Source: Sphingomonas parva (ex Maeng et al. 2020)
GTDB taxonomy: Bacteria; Pseudomonadota; Alphaproteobacteria; Sphingomonadales; Sphingomonadaceae
Direction of reading: 5' to 3'
NCBI RefSeq assembly: GCF_004564275.1
Contig: NZ_SPDV01000018.1
Span: forward strand, 47,617-111,616
DNA: 64,000 nt
Every line of letters starts with the position of its first letter. Within the stretch, counting starts at the first letter, position 1. The position numbers and the translations under genes were made by a program. Shown one piece after another: positions 51,264-60,316 of the stretch. The notes beneath the pieces were generated by a model that was given only the letters and a program-made list of their open reading frames with translations, was not told where the DNA came from and ran no database searches.

Positions 51264-52076
51264 TTATGTTGGTGATTCTTTAGCCGCTTTCTGGGGCTCG
51301 ACCTTCGCAGGTTTTCTAGACGCGGCATTGGGTGTCGGCGTTGCCGCCGGTAGCGAAGTGACTGTGGGTGGTGAAAAAAGGCGGCTTGGCCCACCATCGC
51401 GGATCCATGTGGCGGTCATGGCGATGAATACTGCCAAGACAATGGCCCCGATCAGTCGATAATAGGTTTGCTCGCGTTCGATGGAATGGACGCGATCGGT
51501 CAGGGTCTTGTCGAGATCCTTGATCTTCTTGTTGATGCCCGCGAGCGACTGCAGTTCGCCGGAAATGCCGGAGATCAGATCAGGTGGGAAAGACTCCTGC
51601 ACCGGCTGTTTGCGGGCGAGTTCCGTGGGTCTGTCGAGACCGGCAAACCAGATAAGGAACATCGGCTGACCCTGGCGAAGATGCACGGTTACCGGACCGG
51701 CATTGTATACCGAAAAAATGAGACGACCACGGAAGCCTGGGTCAACGTGAAAGCCAGAAACGTTGACGAGACCGCGCCATTTGATCTTTGCCTTAATCGA
51801 AATGAGCGCAAGCGCGATGTTCGGAACCTCAATTTTTTCCTCCGTAAGTAGGAAGGCGAATTGTCCCGGCGGTATTGTGAAACCTTCGCCGTCGCCGAGT
51901 TGGCGGATCGTGACGTTCAGCGGGTCCTGCATTGCGTCGTTGGGGGATACGTAGACTTCTCGGCCCATGGAGAGCGTATAAGCCGAGCAATCCACCCGCT
52001 CGGGATCGAAGGGCGTCACCAGGGTGGCAAGTCGATCCTTGAGGGTTTCCCCGCTCCAGAATCCTGTCGGCACCAT
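51264..52076 (-). CDS. dCTP deaminase/dUTPase-fold protein with C-terminal membrane anchor
   Basis: 270 residues from ATG 52076, which has GGAGGA 6 bases upstream; longer starts would read into the abiE operators. Residues 1-160 are the trimeric dUTPase/dCTP-deaminase fold (DPERVDCSAYTLSMG, IKAKIKWRGLVNVSGFHVDPGFRGRLIFSVYNAGP). The deaminase catalytic Glu (LE-x-YN in the enzyme) is Ser122 here, so classical deamination is doubtful while the HVDPGF loop is kept. A coiled coil (180-203), one membrane helix (about 207-225) and a Pro/Lys-rich tail follow. Divergent from abiEi; may bind nucleotides at the membrane in defence. Confidence 0.72.
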   Translation of the reverse strand: MVPTGFWSGETLKDRLATLVTPFDPERVDCSAYTLSMGREVYVSPNDAMQDPLNVTIRQLGDGEGFTIPPGQFAFLLTEEKIEVPNIALALISIKAKIKWRGLVNVSGFHVDPGFRGRLIFSVYNAGPVTVHLRQGQPMFLIWFAGLDRPTELARKQPVQESFPPDLISGISGELQSLAGINKKIKDLDKTLTDRVHSIEREQTYYRLIGAIVLAVFIAMTATWIRDGGPSRLFSPPTVTSLPAATPTPNAASRKPAKVEPQKAAKESPT

Positions 52077-52092
52077 TCTGTCCTCCGGGTAA

Positions 52093-52171
52093 TTTGTCAG
52101 AAGTTTACTGCATGAATCTGACAAATCGGTTTCCAGATTTGTCAGAACTGCGTATACGCGCTTCTGACAAA
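52093..52171. promoter_or_regulatory. Two paired inverted repeats: probable AbiEi operators
   Basis: Half-site TTTGTCAGAA occurs at 52093-52102 and 52138-52147; its inverse TCTGACAAA at 52117-52125 and TTCTGACAAA at 52162-52171. This gives two inverted repeats, each with a spacer of about 14 bp, offset by exactly 45 bp. AbiEi antitoxins are known to autorepress through two inverted repeats upstream of abiE. The sites also lie directly behind the start of the divergent dUTPase-like gene. Confidence 0.8.
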
Positions 52172-52180
52172 GGAACTAGC

Positions 52181-52852
52181 ATGCGTGGACCTGGCCTCGA
52201 TCTCAAAAGCGCCATATCGGATCGTATGATCGCTGGAGGCGTGCCTTCGGTCTGGACGCCGCAGGATTTCCTCGACCTGGGCTCTCGCGACGCCGTCGAT
52301 CAGGTGCTGCACCGCCTGACACGCAATGGTGACGTACGCAGGATCGCCCGCGGCCTCTATGACAAACCGGCGCTCAACCGACTTACGGGCAAGGCAACGC
52401 ACCCTGATCCGCGTGCCGTCGTCGATGCGCTGGCGCGCCGCGACCAAGCCCGCATCCTAGTCGATGGCGTGACCGCCGCCAACGATCTTGGTCTCTCCGA
52501 TGCCGTACCGGCGCGCATCGTCGTGCATACCGACGCCAGGTTGAAACCGATCAAACTTGGAAACCTTCAGATCGATTTCAAAACCACGGCGCCGAGCCGG
52601 CTTCACTGGGCCGGCCGGCCGGCCATGCGCGTCGTTCAAGCCTTGCACTGGCTGCATGACGCCGGGGGCGACACCGATCGGGCTGTCGCCAAGCGCCTGC
52701 GCACCATCTTTGCCGATCCCGATCATGGTGCGCGGATCGTCGACGATCTCCGTGGCGACATGCTTACGCTCCCGCTCTGGATGCAGACCATCCTGCGCGA
52801 TACTATGCCGACGACGCCGTCAGCCGATCGTCTGGAGACCAAGAGAGCATGA
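52181..52852 (+). CDS. abiEi: Type IV antitoxin AbiEi (DUF6088 type)
   Basis: 223 residues from ATG 52181, chosen for AAAGGAA at about 7 bases and because the preceding bases hold the operators. N-terminal winged HTH (VWTPQDFLDLGSRDAVDQVLHRLTRNGDVRRIARGLYDKP) and a C-terminal domain with LVDGVTAANDLGLSDAVPARIVVHTD. Neutralises the AbiEii toxin indirectly and represses its own promoter. TGA is separated from abiEii by 1 base. Confidence 0.88.
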   Translation: MRGPGLDLKSAISDRMIAGGVPSVWTPQDFLDLGSRDAVDQVLHRLTRNGDVRRIARGLYDKPALNRLTGKATHPDPRAVVDALARRDQARILVDGVTAANDLGLSDAVPARIVVHTDARLKPIKLGNLQIDFKTTAPSRLHWAGRPAMRVVQALHWLHDAGGDTDRAVAKRLRTIFADPDHGARIVDDLRGDMLTLPLWMQTILRDTMPTTPSADRLETKRA

Positions 52853-52853
52853 A

Positions 52854-53906
52854 ATGAGCCCCGATCATGCCCGGTTTCTCGCGGCCGACCCCACCGATCG
52901 CCGCGATGTGTTCATCGGTGCCGGCCAGCGGCTGGGCACTGCGCCTCAGAATATCGAGAAGGATTTTTGGGTCTGTTGGACCCTCGACGCGCTGTTCAAC
53001 GGTCCGGCGTCCCACGGACCACGCTTTCTCTTCAAAGGGGGGACATCGCTATCGAAGGGCTTCGGCCTGATTCAGCGTTTCTCCGAGGACATCGACATCA
53101 CAGTGTTTCGCGAAGACATTGGCGAGGAGGCGAGCGTCGCTGCACTGGAGGCGATGTCCGGTAAGAAGCGACAGGCCAAGCTCGATGCCATCAAGGCGGC
53201 ATGCCAGGCCTTTATCGGCGGCGAGCTGCTCGCCCGGCTTTCGGAAACGCTGGCCAGCGCGGTGGGCGGAGATACGGCGGGGGCGAAGGTCGAACTCGAT
53301 TCCGACGACGAGAGCGAGCAAAGCCTACTTCTCTGGTATCCCAGTGTGACCGCCGAGTCCGACGGCTACATTCGTAAAGCCGTCAAAATCGAATCCGGCG
53401 CCAAATCCGCTCTTGACCCGCATGCCCGCCACAGCGTCATACCCTATCTGGCCGACGATCTGCCCGACCTCGATCTGACAGTCGACAACGTTACCATCGT
53501 CGATGCGGAACGCACCTTCTGGGATAAGGTCGTCATTCTCCATGGCTTGCGCCGCTGGTTCGACGCCCGACAGGTTTTGCGCGCCGGTGGGCAGCGGGTC
53601 TCACGCCACTATTATGACGTGCATCAGCTGATGGCCGCCGGAACGGGCGCTTCAGCCTTGGCCAACCCCGAACTCGGCAGGGATCGCGTCGCGCACGCCC
53701 GGATGTTCTTCAATAGCCGCGACCTCGATCTCGCCCATGCCGAGCCAGGCGACTTTTCCCTGACGCCCACCGACGCGATGATCGCTGACCTCCGCCGCGA
53801 CTATGCCGCCATGGCCGGCATGATCTTCGGTGATGTGCCCGACTTCGATGCCGTCCTCGAAACCGTCGACATGCTCCAACGTTCGCTGAACGAGCCGACG
53901 GCATGA
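52854..53906 (+). CDS. abiEii: Type IV toxin AbiEii nucleotidyltransferase
   Basis: 350 residues from ATG 52854. Nucleotidyltransferase motifs: FKGGTSLSKGFGLIQRFSEDIDI with the G-G-T-S-L-S-K loop and DxD metal ligands, then a long helical C-terminal domain containing FWDKVVILHGL and SRHYYDVHQL. AbiEii-family toxins (related to MenT) block growth, giving phage abortive infection and element stabilisation. Its stop overlaps the acpS-like ATG (ATGATGA), so the third gene is translationally coupled. Confidence 0.9.
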   Translation: MSPDHARFLAADPTDRRDVFIGAGQRLGTAPQNIEKDFWVCWTLDALFNGPASHGPRFLFKGGTSLSKGFGLIQRFSEDIDITVFREDIGEEASVAALEAMSGKKRQAKLDAIKAACQAFIGGELLARLSETLASAVGGDTAGAKVELDSDDESEQSLLLWYPSVTAESDGYIRKAVKIESGAKSALDPHARHSVIPYLADDLPDLDLTVDNVTIVDAERTFWDKVVILHGLRRWFDARQVLRAGGQRVSRHYYDVHQLMAAGTGASALANPELGRDRVAHARMFFNSRDLDLAHAEPGDFSLTPTDAMIADLRRDYAAMAGMIFGDVPDFDAVLETVDMLQRSLNEPTA

Positions 53907-54283
53907 TGATCGCACATGGCATCGATTTAGTCGATGTCGCCCATACCGCGCGGCTGCTTACCGACCCGACCGATCAGCTCCTGACCCGATGCTTTACGCA
54001 GCAGGAACAGGAAGCTGCCGGGAACGGCGCAGATCGCGCCGCCCGGCTGTCAGGCCGGCTCGCCGCCAAAGAGGCCGTGATGAAGGCGCTAGGCACGGGC
54101 TTCTCTGCTGGTGTGGGCTTTCTCAGCATCGAGGTGGTCATGCTTCCGTCCGGCGCACCCACGATCGTCTTGCATGGCGAGGCGCAGAAACGTGCCGAAA
54201 TGCTCGGTATCCGTTCATGGCTTATCAGCACCAGCCATGAGGGCGACATGGCGATCGCCAGTGTGATCGGCCTCGCTAATTAG
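53903..54283 (+). CDS. AcpS-type 4'-phosphopantetheinyl transferase
   Basis: 126 residues, full AcpS length. Motifs: IAHGIDLVDVAH with the metal ligand Asp8, GRLAAKEAVMKALGTG with Glu57 and Lys61, GAPTIVLHG, and ISTSHEGDMAIASVI. It would attach phosphopantetheine from CoA to a carrier-protein serine. The chromosome should already supply an AcpS, so a copy inside an ICE island implies a dedicated client; the ACP-like protein at 58455 is the candidate. Translationally coupled to abiEii and its stop overlaps that of the convergent MazG gene by 3-4 bases. Confidence 0.88.
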   Translation: MMIAHGIDLVDVAHTARLLTDPTDQLLTRCFTQQEQEAAGNGADRAARLSGRLAAKEAVMKALGTGFSAGVGFLSIEVVMLPSGAPTIVLHGEAQKRAEMLGIRSWLISTSHEGDMAIASVIGLAN

Positions 54284-55167
54284 GAGGCGCTGAGGTAGCG
54301 AATCGACCTTGCGTCGAGGTCGACTGAAATCTCGCCGCCATTATTGGCGAGAACTTGGCGCCACACCGCGAACCCTTCCAGAATCGCGCGCTCCCAATCG
54401 GCGGCGGTGGCTTCGCCAACCTCGAGGTGCGAGGTCATGCTCTGGATTGTTCGCAGCAGGCCATAATCGACCTCGCTGACGCCTTCGAGGAAGTTGTGTC
54501 TGCGTGCATAGTCGAACGCTAAGGCGGACACGCCCTCTTCGATGATCCGGGCGCGGCCGCCGTCTTCGACTTCGTCCAGCAAAGGCCGGCTCTTGCGCTT
54601 GCGTTTCAGAAAGGCCCGCAGGTTTGGCGACCAGCCGAGGATCGCGGCATAGGCCACGTGGAACACGTCGTGAAAGCGATAGCCGTCCGGATCATAGGCA
54701 TTGTCGCCAAGCAACGCTCCGATGCCCTCGCCATTGATCGTCATCCGGACTTTCGGTCGGGTACTCGACCCGGGTTCCTCGACCAATCGGACAATCATCT
54801 GCCGCGGAAGCCTTTCCACGTCAGGAAATTCGGAATCTCGCTCCGGTGCTTGCGCACTTGTCGGCGCGAAGCGCGCGCGCACTTTGTCGAGATTTTTTTC
54901 GGCGATCTGATCGAGGTCGAGACCGAACTTGCTCGCGACATTGGCGATATACCACAGGAGATCGCCGAGCTCCTCGCCGACCCGATCCTTGAACAATCGG
55001 TGCGCAGCGCCATCCCGCAGATGCTTCTTATACTCGCTCAGCAACTGGCCGGTCTCGCCCGCTAGCCCAAGCATAGGCACGATCAGGGCAGCGGCCATTT
55101 CGTCGTCGCTCGTCCCTGGCACTTGATCGGTAAGTAGTGCCTGCGCCTGATATGACTTGAGATCCAT
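54280..55167 (-). CDS. MazG-like nucleoside triphosphate pyrophosphohydrolase with extra C-terminal domain
   Basis: 295 residues from ATG 55167 (TGATG overlap with the previous stop). The N-terminal MazG fold has LGLAGETGQLLSEYKK (Glu38; the usual second Glu is Gln41) and GEELGDLLWYIANVA (E-x-x-D at 66-69). The C-terminal 180 residues (HDVFHVAYAAILGW, RKRKSRPLLDEVEDGGRARIIEEG) match the MazG C-terminal domain described for base-modification loci, as I recall. Probably hydrolyses (d)NTPs, clearing competitors for a modified nucleotide or starving a phage. Confidence 0.85.
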   Translation of the reverse strand: MDLKSYQAQALLTDQVPGTSDDEMAAALIVPMLGLAGETGQLLSEYKKHLRDGAAHRLFKDRVGEELGDLLWYIANVASKFGLDLDQIAEKNLDKVRARFAPTSAQAPERDSEFPDVERLPRQMIVRLVEEPGSSTRPKVRMTINGEGIGALLGDNAYDPDGYRFHDVFHVAYAAILGWSPNLRAFLKRKRKSRPLLDEVEDGGRARIIEEGVSALAFDYARRHNFLEGVSEVDYGLLRTIQSMTSHLEVGEATAADWERAILEGFAVWRQVLANNGGEISVDLDARSIRYLSAS

Positions 55168-56354
55168 CAATATGCTCCCGACTTTGGCGCATTCTTATAT
55201 GCGTTCGCGGCGCCAGGCCGAGATGCCTCGAACGCTTCGTTCGGCACCGCACCGGCGGCAATACGATCATTGATACCCCATTTGGGCGGATACCAGAATT
55301 CGATAGGCTGTGCTTGGGCTGCAAACTTCTGCTTGATGCGGGTGCGGCCCGTCAGGCCCGCAGCTTCAGGATGAGCCACCCGGGCATATTTATCGATTTC
55401 GCAGAATAGGTTCTGACAATCGATCAGCTGCAATGGCCGCCCCCAGAGCGAGGGGAATTCCAGACCCAGCCGAGCGCACTCCTGCTCCTGCCGATCAGCC
55501 ATCAAACGGATGAGCTCAGCATCGCTCAGCCCGCCGGTATCGGCGAAACATTTACGCAGGCCGTCGCGGGCGCCAGGACCCGGGATAACGAAGTCCATCT
55601 CCGAAAAGTCGGTCACTTCGCTGTAATTGACATCGGTCACGAACTGATAGGCGAGGAAATCACCAATGGTCGGGTAGTCACGCAGCAGTTCGAAACCCTG
55701 TTGCATGCTTCGGGCCGACGCGAGCTTCTCCGGCAGCGCCTGCGCCATCATCATCTCAAGGAGCTTGAGATGATTCTGGTGCTTGGCCTTGCACCCGAAA
55801 GCCGAGCTGCCCGGCGGCATGATATAGGCCGCCGAGTAAACCCGATGCCCATCGGCCATCGCCTTCGACAGGATCTTGTCATACCGGTCGAACCGATAGT
55901 CTGCGAAGCTGATTGGGCCGAGCGCCCGCTCTAGCCGTTCCCAGGTCTCGATTTTGTTGAACAGTTTGAAGAGCAGGATGCGGAAGACAACTTCATCGAC
56001 CGAATTCGGCAGATCATCGCGGTAGATCACCTTGCGGATCAGATACTGGCTGACGCGGTCTGACGCCCGGTAGGCGTTCGTGAATTTGTAGACCGCCATC
56101 ACCGGATTGTCAGTCCACGGCCAGGGGGTACCGAGAACGCGGCGGTAGAACACACGCTGCCGTTCAGCGGCAAAACGCCAGTAGCTGTCATAGACGGAAG
56201 TCGTTTTCGCCGGCGCGAGATGGCTAGAAATGATTGTCGGCGCGGTTGGTGCGACAACAGCGGGATAATCGAACTCAAACGTACGCGGCGTCCCTGCGAG
56301 AATCTTGGCAGGGCGGCCGCGCTTGCGACCGCTCGGGGTACCAGTCTTGGTCAC
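55167..56354 (-). CDS. Alpha-glutamyl/putrescinyl thymine pyrophosphorylase-like base-modification protein
   Basis: 395 residues. Residues 55-115 (WRFAAERQRVFYRRV, then YKFTNAYRASDRVSQYL at 89-105) and 120-145 (VVFRILLFKLFNKIETW) are the signature of the aGPT-PPlase family, predicted to add amino-acid or polyamine groups to pyrophosphorylated hydroxymethyl-uracil in hypermodified phage DNA. The N-terminus carries an AT-hook-like KRGRPAK (11-17), absent from most relatives I know, suggesting DNA contact. It lies 6 bp after the TS-like gene and overlaps MazG. Reaction is inferred from the family. Confidence 0.75.
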   Translation of the reverse strand: MTKTGTPSGRKRGRPAKILAGTPRTFEFDYPAVVAPTAPTIISSHLAPAKTTSVYDSYWRFAAERQRVFYRRVLGTPWPWTDNPVMAVYKFTNAYRASDRVSQYLIRKVIYRDDLPNSVDEVVFRILLFKLFNKIETWERLERALGPISFADYRFDRYDKILSKAMADGHRVYSAAYIMPPGSSAFGCKAKHQNHLKLLEMMMAQALPEKLASARSMQQGFELLRDYPTIGDFLAYQFVTDVNYSEVTDFSEMDFVIPGPGARDGLRKCFADTGGLSDAELIRLMADRQEQECARLGLEFPSLWGRPLQLIDCQNLFCEIDKYARVAHPEAAGLTGRTRIKQKFAAQAQPIEFWYPPKWGINDRIAAGAVPNEAFEASRPGAANAYKNAPKSGAY

Positions 56355-56360
56355 AGCGCG

Positions 56361-57215
56361 TCAGGCCCGCTGGGCAGCGAGCCGGAGCGACGGAGACGGC
56401 CGCTGCGTCGCCGGAGCCGGCGGTGCCACACAGGCGCGGGCCGCTTCGATCAGCGGCTTCATAGCGCTGTCCGTCTTGCTGATCCGCTCCAGCTTGGCCA
56501 CGCCGATCGTCACATTGAGGCGCGTGAGCGGAATGCCCATTTCATGCGCCATGAAGGCGGCGAGCTGGGCGAGGCCGAGATAGTTGCCATAGGCCTTATC
56601 GAACAGCTGCTGCGTGGCGTAGAAGGCATTCGCCACCAGGCCGGCCTTGGTCGGCACGAAGCTCACATGCTGAAGGCACGGGAAACCCAGCTGGGCGGTC
56701 GCGCTATGGTCGCGGGCGGGATCGAACGTGGTTGCCTGCCACATCGACCGGCGCACGCCCGGGCGGCTATCATACTGACTCAAAATCCACTCCAACTGAT
56801 TACCATCGCACGGGCCGCGGCCGTACATCATCAGCCGCTCGAAATAGAGGCCTTTGCCGTTAGCCTTGGGATTTCGCGCGCGATAGAAGGGGAATGCCAT
56901 TTTGTAGAACTCGAAGAGCTTGGCGCGGTCTCCCTGTGCCATCGTCCAGAACCGCTGCGGAAAGATGGTATGGGCGACGTCCTCCACGTCGCGCTTCTTT
57001 TTACTGCCCAATAGGGCATCGAGCGCGGTGCGAACCCGAGGATCTTCTGGGACGTCATAGCCTTCGCCAAACCCATCGATCGTGAGGACGAGAGGGGCGA
57101 TCTCATTACCCGGATGCTCCATAATATGGAGCAATGTCCGCGAATAGGCTTCGGAAATGCTCTTGGCCGTGATCATCAGCGGTTCAGGGTTGTCCGGTCG
57201 GTCTGGCTTAGTCAT
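56361..57215 (-). CDS. Thymidylate-synthase-like protein with altered active site
   Basis: 284 residues; ATG 57215 is preferred because GGAGG lies 9 bases upstream. The TS fold is readable: Arg155-Arg156 (GVRRSMWQATTF), nucleophile region FPC at 178-180 (PCH in true TS), AFYATQQLFDKAYGNYLGLAQLAAFMAHE (TS: LYQRSxDxFLGxPFN...), with Asn211 aligning to the base-reading Asn. The phosphate-binding Arg of QRS is Thr201 and the His/Tyr of GDxHxY are Lys241/Glu243. So dUMP methylation is unlikely as such; a nucleotide hydroxymethylase-like or scaffold role is inferred. Confidence 0.68.
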   Translation of the reverse strand: MTKPDRPDNPEPLMITAKSISEAYSRTLLHIMEHPGNEIAPLVLTIDGFGEGYDVPEDPRVRTALDALLGSKKKRDVEDVAHTIFPQRFWTMAQGDRAKLFEFYKMAFPFYRARNPKANGKGLYFERLMMYGRGPCDGNQLEWILSQYDSRPGVRRSMWQATTFDPARDHSATAQLGFPCLQHVSFVPTKAGLVANAFYATQQLFDKAYGNYLGLAQLAAFMAHEMGIPLTRLNVTIGVAKLERISKTDSAMKPLIEAARACVAPPAPATQRPSPSLRLAAQRA

Positions 57216-58095
57216 CTGCATCATCCTCCAAATGGCGGAATTCGGCGCGCCCGACGTAAGCCGTTCGCGCAATACGCCCGAAGGCGGCCCAATCAGTTCC
57301 CGGGCGGTCAATGCGGGCCAGCCCCGGGCGCTTCGCTTCGAACAAACGCCCGCCCTCCAGATCGGCGACCGGCGCGATGACATCGCCATGCGCGACGGTC
57401 CCCGAGGGAAGCAGCAGCAAATGCCCGACCTCTGCATCAATCGCATGGCCACCCGAGGCCTCGTCAGCGACAATGAGCGGGTTGGGCGTCAGCGATCCTA
57501 GAATATGAGCGCGGAGCGTGCGCGGGGTGATCTTGCGCAACGCATCAGCCCGCTCGTGGCTGATCATCGCCTCGCCCCATAGGAGATGCGTGACCAGTGT
57601 GGAGTACCCGACGCCGAACTGGCAGGCGATGCAGTAAATTTCGATCGGGGTCGCGGTCTCCGGCTTGAGGCCACGGACTGCGAAGGCATTGCGCAGGCCC
57701 AAGGTCGGCATCAGCGCATAAGCAGCGAACGTGTCGGCGCTATACTCCTCGGGCACGTCCCACGGCCGTACCAATTGGTTCTCGCGCAACTCATCGATCG
57801 ATGACCCGTGCCCGAGCAGATGATGGCCAAGCTCGTGTGCGCAATTATAAGCGCGGCGGGCGAGTGGGCGCTTGCTGGAGAGATGGATACGCGGCGGTGA
57901 GCTACGCTGGTACATTCCTTCCATATTGATGTCGTTGAAAGTCACGCGAACCCCGTGCGCTTCTGCAATCGAATAGATGCAGACAGGGCTGACCAAATCC
58001 TTGCCGGCTTTCAGTCGCGCGGTGATTGCTGCCTTCATGGCCTTGTCTGCCAAGGCGCGGCGGTTGTGCATCATCGTCTTGGCATGCGCTTTCAT
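57208..58095 (-). CDS. ImmA/IrrE family metallopeptidase
   Basis: 295 residues. Zinc-protease motif HELGHHLLGH at about 88-97 with the downstream Glu in PEEYSADTFAAY as third ligand. An HTH-like middle and a C-terminal GAF-like region follow, as in IrrE. Such enzymes cleave a neighbouring XRE repressor after damage or infection. The repressor gene is 3 bp upstream; the C-terminus overlaps the TS-like start. Confidence 0.9.
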   Translation of the reverse strand: MKAHAKTMMHNRRALADKAMKAAITARLKAGKDLVSPVCIYSIAEAHGVRVTFNDINMEGMYQRSSPPRIHLSSKRPLARRAYNCAHELGHHLLGHGSSIDELRENQLVRPWDVPEEYSADTFAAYALMPTLGLRNAFAVRGLKPETATPIEIYCIACQFGVGYSTLVTHLLWGEAMISHERADALRKITPRTLRAHILGSLTPNPLIVADEASGGHAIDAEVGHLLLLPSGTVAHGDVIAPVADLEGGRLFEAKRPGLARIDRPGTDWAAFGRIARTAYVGRAEFRHLEDDADD

Positions 58096-58098
58096 AGG

Positions 58099-58458
58099 TT
58101 AGGCTCCCTTCTCGTCATCGTCGGACTTCATCGCGGCGATGAGCTTCAGGAGGCGGTCGAGGTCATCGGGCTTAAGTTTGCTCAGTTCGCGGGCAGCGAG
58201 TTGCAGTTTAGGATCGTCTGTCGCTGCGCGTTCGGGCGCATCTCCCAGCAGCCATGACAGTTTGGTGTCGTAGAGGTCAGCAAGCTTTGCGAGTTCGTCA
58301 GCCGTGATCCGGCGATTGCCAGCCTCCATTTCCGAAACGGTCGGGCGGTGCATATTCATCAATTTCGCGACCTGCCCTTGAGAGAGGCCGGCAGCCTCTC
58401 GCGCAGCGCGGAGCCGTGCCGGAAGCGTCATCGCCTTGTCCAAAGGAGCGTCGCTCAT
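58099..58458 (-). CDS. XRE family repressor, partner of ImmA/IrrE
   Basis: 119 residues, HTH_3 at LRAAREAAGLSQGQVAKLMNMHRPTVSEMEAGNRRITADEL, then a linker and an acidic C-terminal helix pair (LSKLKPDDLDRLLKLIAAMK). Probably represses the six-gene operon by binding the GTAAG half-sites at 58784-58809 and is a substrate for the adjacent ImmA-like protease. ATG overlaps the ACP-like stop by 4 bp. Confidence 0.9.
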   Translation of the reverse strand: MSDAPLDKAMTLPARLRAAREAAGLSQGQVAKLMNMHRPTVSEMEAGNRRITADELAKLADLYDTKLSWLLGDAPERAATDDPKLQLAARELSKLKPDDLDRLLKLIAAMKSDDDEKGA

Positions 58459-58769
58459 TTCGCGCCGACCTTTTCGGCTTCTTCGGCATCCTGCGCTTCA
58501 AAGATCTTGAGGACGAGTGCGACCGTCTGGTTGATCGCGAGCGGAATCTTTGTGTCGTCGTCGACAAAGATGTTGGTTTCGCAGGGGATCGATTTCCCGA
58601 GAGCGATACCAAGCATGCCGGCCGCGACAGGCCATACTTTGCTTGTGAACTTCGGCAGAGCCTCAGCTGGTTTCGTGCCGCCGTCGATTACAGGACAGTC
58701 CTCGCCGCTCAACGTCTGCACAGATTGCAGTACCTCGATCAGCTTGGCTTTGACAAAGTTAGCGTCCAT
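58455..58769 (-). CDS. Acyl-carrier-protein-like protein (first gene of the modification operon)
   Basis: 104 residues from ATG 58769 (GGAGGG 5 bases upstream). Ser43 in KFTSKVWP is followed after exactly 19 residues by IP (61-62), the same spacing as from the phosphopantetheinylated Ser36 to Ile-Pro in E. coli ACP; hydrophobic helix-II positions (VWPVAAGMLGIALG) and the late INQTVALVLKIF helix also fit. The usual Asp before the serine is Thr42. With an AcpS-type enzyme encoded in the same island, it may be a modified carrier protein. No annotated family was recognised outright. Confidence 0.55.
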   Translation of the reverse strand: MDANFVKAKLIEVLQSVQTLSGEDCPVIDGGTKPAEALPKFTSKVWPVAAGMLGIALGKSIPCETNIFVDDDTKIPLAINQTVALVLKIFEAQDAEEAEKVGAK

Positions 58770-58783
58770 CACGACCCTCCATT

Positions 58784-58824
58784 TCTTACGGGTAGTAAGA
58801 TATGCTTACCACTGCCAATGTCAA
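58784..58824 (-). promoter_or_regulatory. Promoter and overlapping repressor sites of the modification operon
   Basis: On the minus strand TTGACA (58819-58824), 16 bp, TATCTT (58797-58802). A perfect inverted repeat TCTTAC-N5-GTAAGA (58784-58800) covers the -10 box, and a third CTTAC half-site (58805-58809) lies in the spacer. The layout fits autorepression by the XRE protein of the operon. Confidence 0.65.
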
Positions 58825-59389: not shown

Positions 59390-60316
59390 TCAGATAGGGG
59401 GCTGAGTCTTGCGGAAGTCGAACACGGGGATGCCCAGCTTGCGGGCCTTGTCGGCAAGGTTGTCCTGAATGCCGGTGCCGGGGAACACCACGACCCCGAT
59501 CGGCAGGACATCGAGCATCGCATCGTTGCGTTTGAACGGCGCAGCCTTCGCGTGCTTTGCCCAATCGGGCTTGAATGCGACCTGCGTCACCTTGCGGTTG
59601 TCGGCCCAACAGGCGGCAATGCGCTCGGCCCCTGAGGAAGCACCGCCATGCAGCAGCACCATGTTCTGGTGTTTGGCGCGGACCCGGTCCAGTGCCCCCC
59701 AGATGGCATCGGTATCGTTGCACTCCTTGCCACCGGTAAATGCGACCTTGGGTCCAGTCGGCAGCATGACCTGGGTTTCGGCGCGGCGGCGGGCGGCGAT
59801 GAAGTCGCGGCTGTCGACCATTGCTGCGGTCAGCGCGCGGCGGTTTACGAGGCTGCCATGGCGGGGATGCCAGGCCGAACCGGTATGGGTGCGATAGAGA
59901 TCGCAAGCAGCATCGCGCATCAGTTCATGGGCGTTGCGCCGCTCGATCAGGGTCAGACCCTGCGCCAGCAATTGCTCAAGTTCGACTGAAGCCACCTCGG
60001 AGCCGTCCTGTTCGCGCTGCGATCGACGCTGCGCTTGCTCATTGTCGTCGAGCTCGCGCTCAACCCGCTCAGCCGCGCGGTGGAACAGGTTGACGGTGGA
60101 CCAAAGCAGGTCATCGAGATCGGGTTCGAGCCGGGTGTCGGCCAACGTGCCGATCAGCGCGTCGAAAATGTCGGCAACAGCACCTGCGACACGGTCGCCT
60201 TCGGGCAATGGGCGTGGATCGGGCTCGTCCTGGAATGGCCGGAAGCCGTAGAGTTGCAGTTCATCGAGAATATGCGCGGTCGGGGATTGCTCCTGCGGTT
60301 CGTCGGGATCGGTCAT
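59390..60316 (-). CDS. DUF2493 (SLOG-like) ICE protein
   Basis: 308 residues. The first 180 residues are an ICE-specific N-terminal region (HILDELQLYGFRPFQDEPDPRPLPEGD). The C-terminal DUF2493 is a Rossmannoid SLOG-type domain: VAFTGGKECNDTDAIWGALDRV, LLHGGASSGAERIAACWA and VFPGTGIQDNLADKARKLGIPVFDF, which by family knowledge may bind nucleotide ligands. Possibly a nucleotide sensor of the element. A structured leader precedes it. Confidence 0.88.
   Translation of the reverse strand: MTDPDEPQEQSPTAHILDELQLYGFRPFQDEPDPRPLPEGDRVAGAVADIFDALIGTLADTRLEPDLDDLLWSTVNLFHRAAERVERELDDNEQAQRRSQREQDGSEVASVELEQLLAQGLTLIERRNAHELMRDAACDLYRTHTGSAWHPRHGSLVNRRALTAAMVDSRDFIAARRRAETQVMLPTGPKVAFTGGKECNDTDAIWGALDRVRAKHQNMVLLHGGASSGAERIAACWADNRKVTQVAFKPDWAKHAKAAPFKRNDAMLDVLPIGVVVFPGTGIQDNLADKARKLGIPVFDFRKTQPPI

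Follow-up and report, generated by a model that had tools for sequence, protein, structure and literature searches.

What could an acyl-carrier-like protein and a phosphopantetheinyl transferase (PPTase) be doing among nucleotide enzymes, in an operon that also encodes an XRE repressor and an ImmA/IrrE metallopeptidase? The question is raised by a locus of Sphingomonas parva, lying in a stretch of 64,000 nt (contig NZ_SPDV01000018.1 of assembly GCF_004564275.1, positions 47,617–111,616, forward strand), the whole of which is called the window here. Six tightly packed minus-strand genes encode the carrier protein, XRE, ImmA, a divergent thymidylate-synthase-like (TS-like) enzyme, a PF18723 protein and a MazG-type protein, and converge with an acpS gene on the plus strand. 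The reading that we prefer, which we hold tentatively and in which doubt still slightly outweighs belief, is that the operon and acpS are one copy of a recurring system, making a C5-modified pyrimidine deoxynucleotide on demand for conflict with phages or other invaders.

Organization of the locus

The genes of the operon are separated by gaps of 6 bp or less or share overlaps of 14 bp or less. The carrier gene (58455..58772) overlaps that of XRE (58099..58458) by 4 bp, and 3 bp separate the latter from the ImmA gene (57208..58095), which overlaps the TS-like gene (56361..57221, its start corrected from the sequence) by 14 bp. After a gap of 6 bp follows the PF18723 gene (55167..56354), overlapping that of MazG (54280..55170) by 4 bp if the TTG start of MazG is taken, and the MazG stop in turn overlaps acpS (53903..54283, plus strand) by 4 bp. 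The first-pass annotation of this DNA had placed all seven genes properly, with a spacing of at most 6 bp that the 14-bp overlap exceeds. Its parts list stands for these seven genes and missed two things described below, a dCTP-deaminase-like neighbour and a form of the system with a papain-type peptidase and a chagasin domain.

Recurrence of the gene set

Outside the window the same set was found repeatedly. With TS-like seeds, carrier, XRE and ImmA were present in all seven loci recovered from genome contigs; among plasmids 21 records matched, and the three genes lay upstream in each of the 17 that were opened (records of Sphingomonas C8-2, Sphingobium TA15 and YBL2, and Rhizorhabdus matched and were not among these 17). 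Co-occurrence elsewhere, on which the first-pass annotation had beforehand staked its proposal, is thus what these searches returned. Using half of a split TS-like protein as query, 16 records matched and the set was seen in 11 of the 12 opened. The organisms carrying it include Alpha- and Betaproteobacteria, Cyanobacteria, Streptomyces and one haloarchaeon.

For a closer comparison we tabulated 31 loci (numbered with the prefix L), pre-selected as holding parts of the set, PF18723 loci lacking it being left out; setting aside L070, where XRE is missing, and L056, truncated by the end of its contig, leaves 29. These are not independent, as L005 and L006 are near-duplicates and several others are close sphingomonad copies. 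L058 and L007 are one and the same record. A gene counts here as absent when tblastn found no match for it at E <= 0.01 within the stretch fetched, and three carriers (L023, L033, L067) were read by hand or from annotation. Carrier, XRE, ImmA and the TS-like enzyme are present in 29/29, MazG in 26/29 and a dCTP-deaminase-like gene in 12/29. The PF18723 protein occurs in 19 loci and a uracil-DNA glycosylase (UDG) in the other 10, never both. This mutual exclusion suggests that the two proteins share one step on the base.

The loci with UDG in place of the PF18723 protein represent a second form, which adds a papain-type C1 peptidase; the latter was found in all 10 UDG loci and in 3 PF18723 loci, and on plasmids of this form its gene lies between those of ImmA and the TS-like enzyme. 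Of five ImmA proteins tested from C1-type loci, three score over the Pfam cut-off for an inhibitor domain of the chagasin family (I42) and two score below it; the domain is absent from three tested ImmA proteins of the other form. In L059 (5294-6301), L062 (5386-6366) and L063 (5312-6331), the ImmA-I42 fusion is encoded directly upstream of the peptidase. Since chagasins inhibit papain-type peptidases, the C1 peptidase is probably held in check by ImmA. At E <= 0.01, PADLOC returned nothing for the C1, TS-like, UDG and MazG proteins of this form.

In genome samples PF18723 was seen in 9/296 genomes of the order and 5/398 of the phylum, and the carrier in 2/289 of the class, the window genome being counted each time; given such low counts, the set is widespread but rare. 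Some results go against this reading or fall short of it. A Burkholderia arboris record holds a TS-like fragment without carrier, XRE or ImmA. Among the 12 PF18723 genomes of the order and phylum samples, the carrier was found in 4 and was absent nearby in 7, one locus lying at a contig end, and of 22 plasmid records with PF18723, 16 were opened, showing the carrier in 9 and lacking it in 7. Because PF18723 often occurs without the carrier, we conclude that the carrier follows the divergent TS-like enzyme and not PF18723.

The settings of PF18723 without a carrier are diverse. Gene pairs for TIR and Nmad2 proteins lie near it with TS and a methyltransferase (L030, L035), with radical SAM (L036) or with patatin and MazG (L032); MazG and an Nmad2-like gene accompany it in L024-L026, L028 and L029, and on sphingomonad plasmids (L012, L013) it lies between exonuclease/dnaQ-like and dnaE-like genes. 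The TIR-Nmad2-TS-PF18723 loci may be of the kind described in PMC13092281.

Carrier protein and phosphopantetheinyl transferases

The small first protein of the operon is predicted to be an acyl carrier protein (ACP). Its model adopts the acyl carrier protein fold with confidence, and Ser43, in the motif F-T-S-K, is invariant in 23 aligned carriers and aligns with DSL motifs. The next helix begins at residue 46; model and alignment together thus put a serine at the start of helix II, as for phosphopantetheine attachment. The first-pass label “ACP-like” agrees well with this predicted fold and with the invariant serine. The window carrier has no match in Pfam or NCBIfam, PF00550 included, and of nine carriers scanned with PF00550 one scored over the cut-off, four below it and four not at all. 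Profile-based identity comes from a broad alignment (A4), in which identity to the window carrier ranges over 11-60%; a narrow profile (A6) found nothing in the PDB. A search of IMG/VR contigs did not recover the carrier, and PHROGs gave no match for it or for the TS-like enzyme.

The AcpS-type PPTase matches PF01648 (6e-16; 58.8 bits, cut-off 25) and TIGR00516 (64.5 bits, cut-off 59.8). The genome encodes another AcpS-family protein that shares 39% identity with it over 102 aa; ACPS-family matches in this genome number three, the window's included. Across the tabulated loci a PPTase lies nearby in 14/29, being AcpS in 13 and an Sfp-like protein on a Haloarcula plasmid. The latter is encoded about 100 bp upstream of the carrier, its ACPS domain scoring over the cut-off and its N-terminal domain just below. 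Haloarchaea are not known to make fatty acids on an ACP. That the Haloarcula plasmid supplies its own PPTase suggests that the holo form of the carrier matters. In addition, a lysine follows the carrier serine in 12 of 13 loci with a nearby PPTase versus 3 of 17 without (Fisher test on 12/1/3/14, 30 loci, p 1.2e-4, kinship ignored and only fetched stretches considered), an association that is suggestive only.

The TS-like enzyme

The TS-like enzyme (286 aa) matches NCBIfam TIGR03283 at 2e-10, below the curated cut-off, and PF00303 gave no match at E <= 1 over the 276 of its 286 residues scanned. Cys182, corresponding to the catalytic cysteine of the TS superfamily, is invariant in alignments of 18 and of 28 members, and Asn213 in that of 18. 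The Arg-Ser of TS, which binds the dUMP phosphate, is Ala-Thr in the window enzyme and in five others of its form, and the arginine is kept in 12 aligned Streptomyces and C1-type members, its position being aligned by spacing to Asn213. A profile of the window's own TS-like family has CMP 5-hydroxymethylase, which we take to be MilA, as its best match in the PDB and nearest solved structure, the similarity being weak (E 0.011); with a wider alignment of both forms, thymidylate synthases rank first (E 0.012).

In Rhizobium ruizarguesonis pRlX4 (L014, 3675-4506) the TS-like protein is encoded by two adjacent open frames, which could be a natural split or a broken gene, and two pieces are also seen in L071. 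Beside one C1-type locus (L068, 9789-11969) lies a gene whose product, of 727 residues, combines a metallophosphoesterase domain with a region that matches thymidylate synthase below cut-off; similarly annotated genes are found in L069 and L071.

PF18723, MazG and dCTP-deaminase-like proteins

The PF18723 protein (1e-112) belongs to a family that Pfam names HMUDK_hel, for the helical domain of 5-hydroxymethyldeoxyuridine (5-hmdU) DNA kinase. The label “aGPT-PPlase-like” of the first-pass annotation is therefore not the Pfam name, and it keeps some currency, since “alpha-glutamyl/putrescinyl thymine pyrophosphorylase clade 1” is the JGI name on 2 of 120 listed relatives. The model of the protein is moderate (pLDDT 70). 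In the structural comparison, DUF2419 enzymes acting on queuosine monophosphate, the 5-PmdU glycinyltransferase of phage (PUGT) and helix-hairpin-helix (HhH) DNA glycosylases fill the first 29 rows, followed by a gap to unrelated rows; by Foldseek alone the model gave nothing significant, and helical models reach such Z by chance. The protein is possibly of a glycosylase-like fold. Searched against the PDB, the PF18723 profile met a chance-level match only (annexin, E 0.32), and in PHROGs the protein falls in phrog_2396, of unknown function.

Two other identities were tried and rejected. The family scan holds no match that would make the protein a P-loop kinase. A canonical aGPT-PPlase reading alone fails on the Pfam assignment and on the thymine hypermodification cluster of Pseudomonas phage Ab18, where the PF18723 protein is ORF13 (no match in the PDB by phmmer) and the solved glycinyltransferase (8z2m) corresponds to ORF09 (ADDT, 1.7e-193). 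The presence of UDG in its place in 10/29 loci also speaks against the role of installing transferase that the first-pass annotation had given it.

The MazG protein carries MazG_C (PF18722, 1e-74) and MazG (PF03819, 7e-5) domains and resembles pyrophosphohydrolases. Further downstream on the minus strand, at 51264..52124, lies the gene of a dCTP-deaminase-like protein (PF22769, 1e-14; TIGR02274, 1e-18, below cut-off), which is likely part of the system and is set apart from acpS here by AbiE genes.

Regulation of the operon

An exact palindrome, GTAAG-N5-CTTAC, stands before the carrier gene on the minus strand (GTAAGCATATCTTAC, 58795..58809) and is predicted to be the XRE operator. It covers a -10-like TATCTT (58797-58802), and a -35-like TTGACA was read from the sequence at 58819..58824. 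Allowing at most one mismatch, it is the sole match in the window, where 0.21 were expected. Outside Streptomyces, the same palindrome precedes the carrier gene in 13/13 loci examined of the window's form, among them the window itself and two from cyanobacteria, and TTGAC lies 15-16 bases before it in 10 of the other 12. In C1-type loci (13 examined) TGTCGGA-N3-TCCGACA was found in three (L059, L065, L069) and a variant in one (L060); the palindromes of L027 and L071 differ in sequence, and in the remaining seven none with 6-base arms was seen. Conservation of GTAAG-N5-CTTAC at the promoter fits the XRE control that had been put forward for this operon.

XRE (HTH_3, 2e-15) has capH as its best PADLOC match (3e-16, best of 24 families), and ImmA (Peptidase_M78, 4e-15) has capP (1e-11, best of 14 families). 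Such a pair is what the window has in common with CapH-CapP regulated defence, CBASS among others; unlike there, a carrier protein precedes the pair in the window, and its scanned proteins gave no match to a cyclase (CD-NTase) or a CBASS effector.

Proposed mechanism and alternatives

Under our preferred reading, XRE bound to the palindrome over the promoter would keep the operon off until a signal activates ImmA and XRE is removed. AcpS, or a PPTase of the host, would then arm the carrier serine with phosphopantetheine, and the dCTP-deaminase-like protein and MazG could steer the nucleotide pool to dUMP. The TS-like cysteine would activate C5 of the uracil nucleotide, and the enzyme would couple this carbon to a group borne by the holo-carrier, or to the holo-carrier thiol itself. 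Finally, the PF18723 protein, or UDG in the other form, may act on the modified base in DNA, by transfer or by excision. Gene content, linkage, the conserved serine and the palindrome are observed, and the biochemical steps are predictions. Of the overall model in the first-pass annotation, this retains the predicted carrier fold, the linkage recurring across phyla and the PPTase (14/29), whereas delivery of an acyl or aminoacyl group by the carrier, its installation by the PF18723 protein, a hydroxymethyl nucleotide made by the TS-like enzyme and cleavage of XRE by ImmA stay conjectural. A bolder version, which we consider improbable, has the TS-like enzyme load the nucleotide on the carrier: the phosphopantetheine thiol would trap the exocyclic-methylene intermediate to give a protein-tethered thymidine-like nucleotide, which PF18723 or UDG would release or transfer. 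If true, a nucleotide-loaded carrier would give the ACP fold a kind of chemistry that is new for it and would explain the PPTase adjoining the carrier on the haloarchaeal plasmid.

The alternative that survives best, though we think it unlikely, is that carrier and PPTase form a sensor, the holo- or acyl-carrier binding ImmA or XRE and so reporting infection or metabolic state, and the TS-like enzyme, PF18723 or UDG, and MazG being the enzymes regulated. The carrier gene heads the operon, and in the loci opened it keeps the XRE and ImmA genes as direct neighbours even when the order of the cargo differs. In the same direction, the family scan found no carrier-loading enzyme among the seven window proteins, which also counts against the earlier detail that the carrier supplies an acyl or aminoacyl group. 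Yet across the 29 readable loci the TS-like enzyme accompanies the carrier just as constantly as XRE and ImmA do, and CapH-CapP is an example of an XRE-ImmA pair that works with no carrier, which argues against the need for such an input.

Less probable still is that the mobile element hypermodifies its own DNA, shielding it from restriction on entry to a new host. The window carries genes of the type IV secretion system (T4SS) coupling protein, TraG, TrbL, TrbI and CagX families and a phage-type integrase and is therefore most likely an integrative conjugative element of a sphingomonad; 13 of the 21 plasmid records with a TS-like match are typed conjugative as well. Pseudomonas phages M6 and PaMx11 have further thymine hypermodification clusters. 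In the Ab18 cluster the PF18723 protein stands beside a TS-family enzyme, as in the window, and a P-loop protein (5-hmdU kinase model, below cut-off). That cluster differs in that it has this P-loop protein together with an FAD oxidoreductase, an amino acid:DNA transferase and a protein annotated as an acetyltransferase, and over the 11 kb read none of its annotations names a carrier, XRE or ImmA; for the seven window proteins the reverse holds. No P-loop 5-hmdU kinase was matched among these seven, the rest of the genome not having been searched for one, and UDG, found in 10/29 loci, is expected to remove an altered base rather than keep it; both points disfavour self-modification.

That the system defends by nucleotide depletion, the dCTP-deaminase-like protein and MazG draining the dCTP pool with the other enzymes as accessories, we regard as a poor prospect. 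dCTP deaminase is a known anti-phage type, and its relatives near 12/29 loci with MazG in 26/29 would suit it, but 17/29 stretches show no dCTP-deaminase-like gene and all 29 have carrier and TS-like enzyme. A chance neighbourhood of genes is ruled out by the recurrence of the set elsewhere.

Base-modifying conflict systems themselves are already known. Thymidylate synthase, 5-hmdU kinase and NMAD domains occur in anti-phage systems (PMC13092281) that have enzyme families in common with the window system, and the accessible part of that source mentions no carrier protein or PPTase and has no “ImmA” in its text. Among the literature matches listed, none describes a system joining a carrier protein, TS and ImmA or MazG, a prior description being still possible; likewise none gives a base-modifying conflict system with carrier protein and PPTase, in line with what the first-pass annotation had said. 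What is at stake is whether carrier-protein chemistry is linked to nucleotides, if the carrier acts chemically, or whether XRE-ImmA switches of the defence-controlling kind have a new input, if it is a sensor, in a set spanning cyanobacteria to a haloarchaeon. In both cases simple targets for point mutants are at hand in the serine of the carrier, the cysteine of the TS-like enzyme and the PPTase.

Neighbouring genes

Between the dCTP-deaminase-like gene and acpS the window encodes AbiEi (DUF6088) and AbiEii (52094-53906), the AbiEii stop overlapping the acpS start by 4 bp. The order deaminase-AbiE-acpS was also seen in L002 and L008; in L003, L005 and L007 the deaminase gene adjoins acpS, with no AbiE match between. 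Upstream of the operon, at 59390-60316, lies a gene for a YspA-type SLOG-family protein (PF10686, 2e-29).

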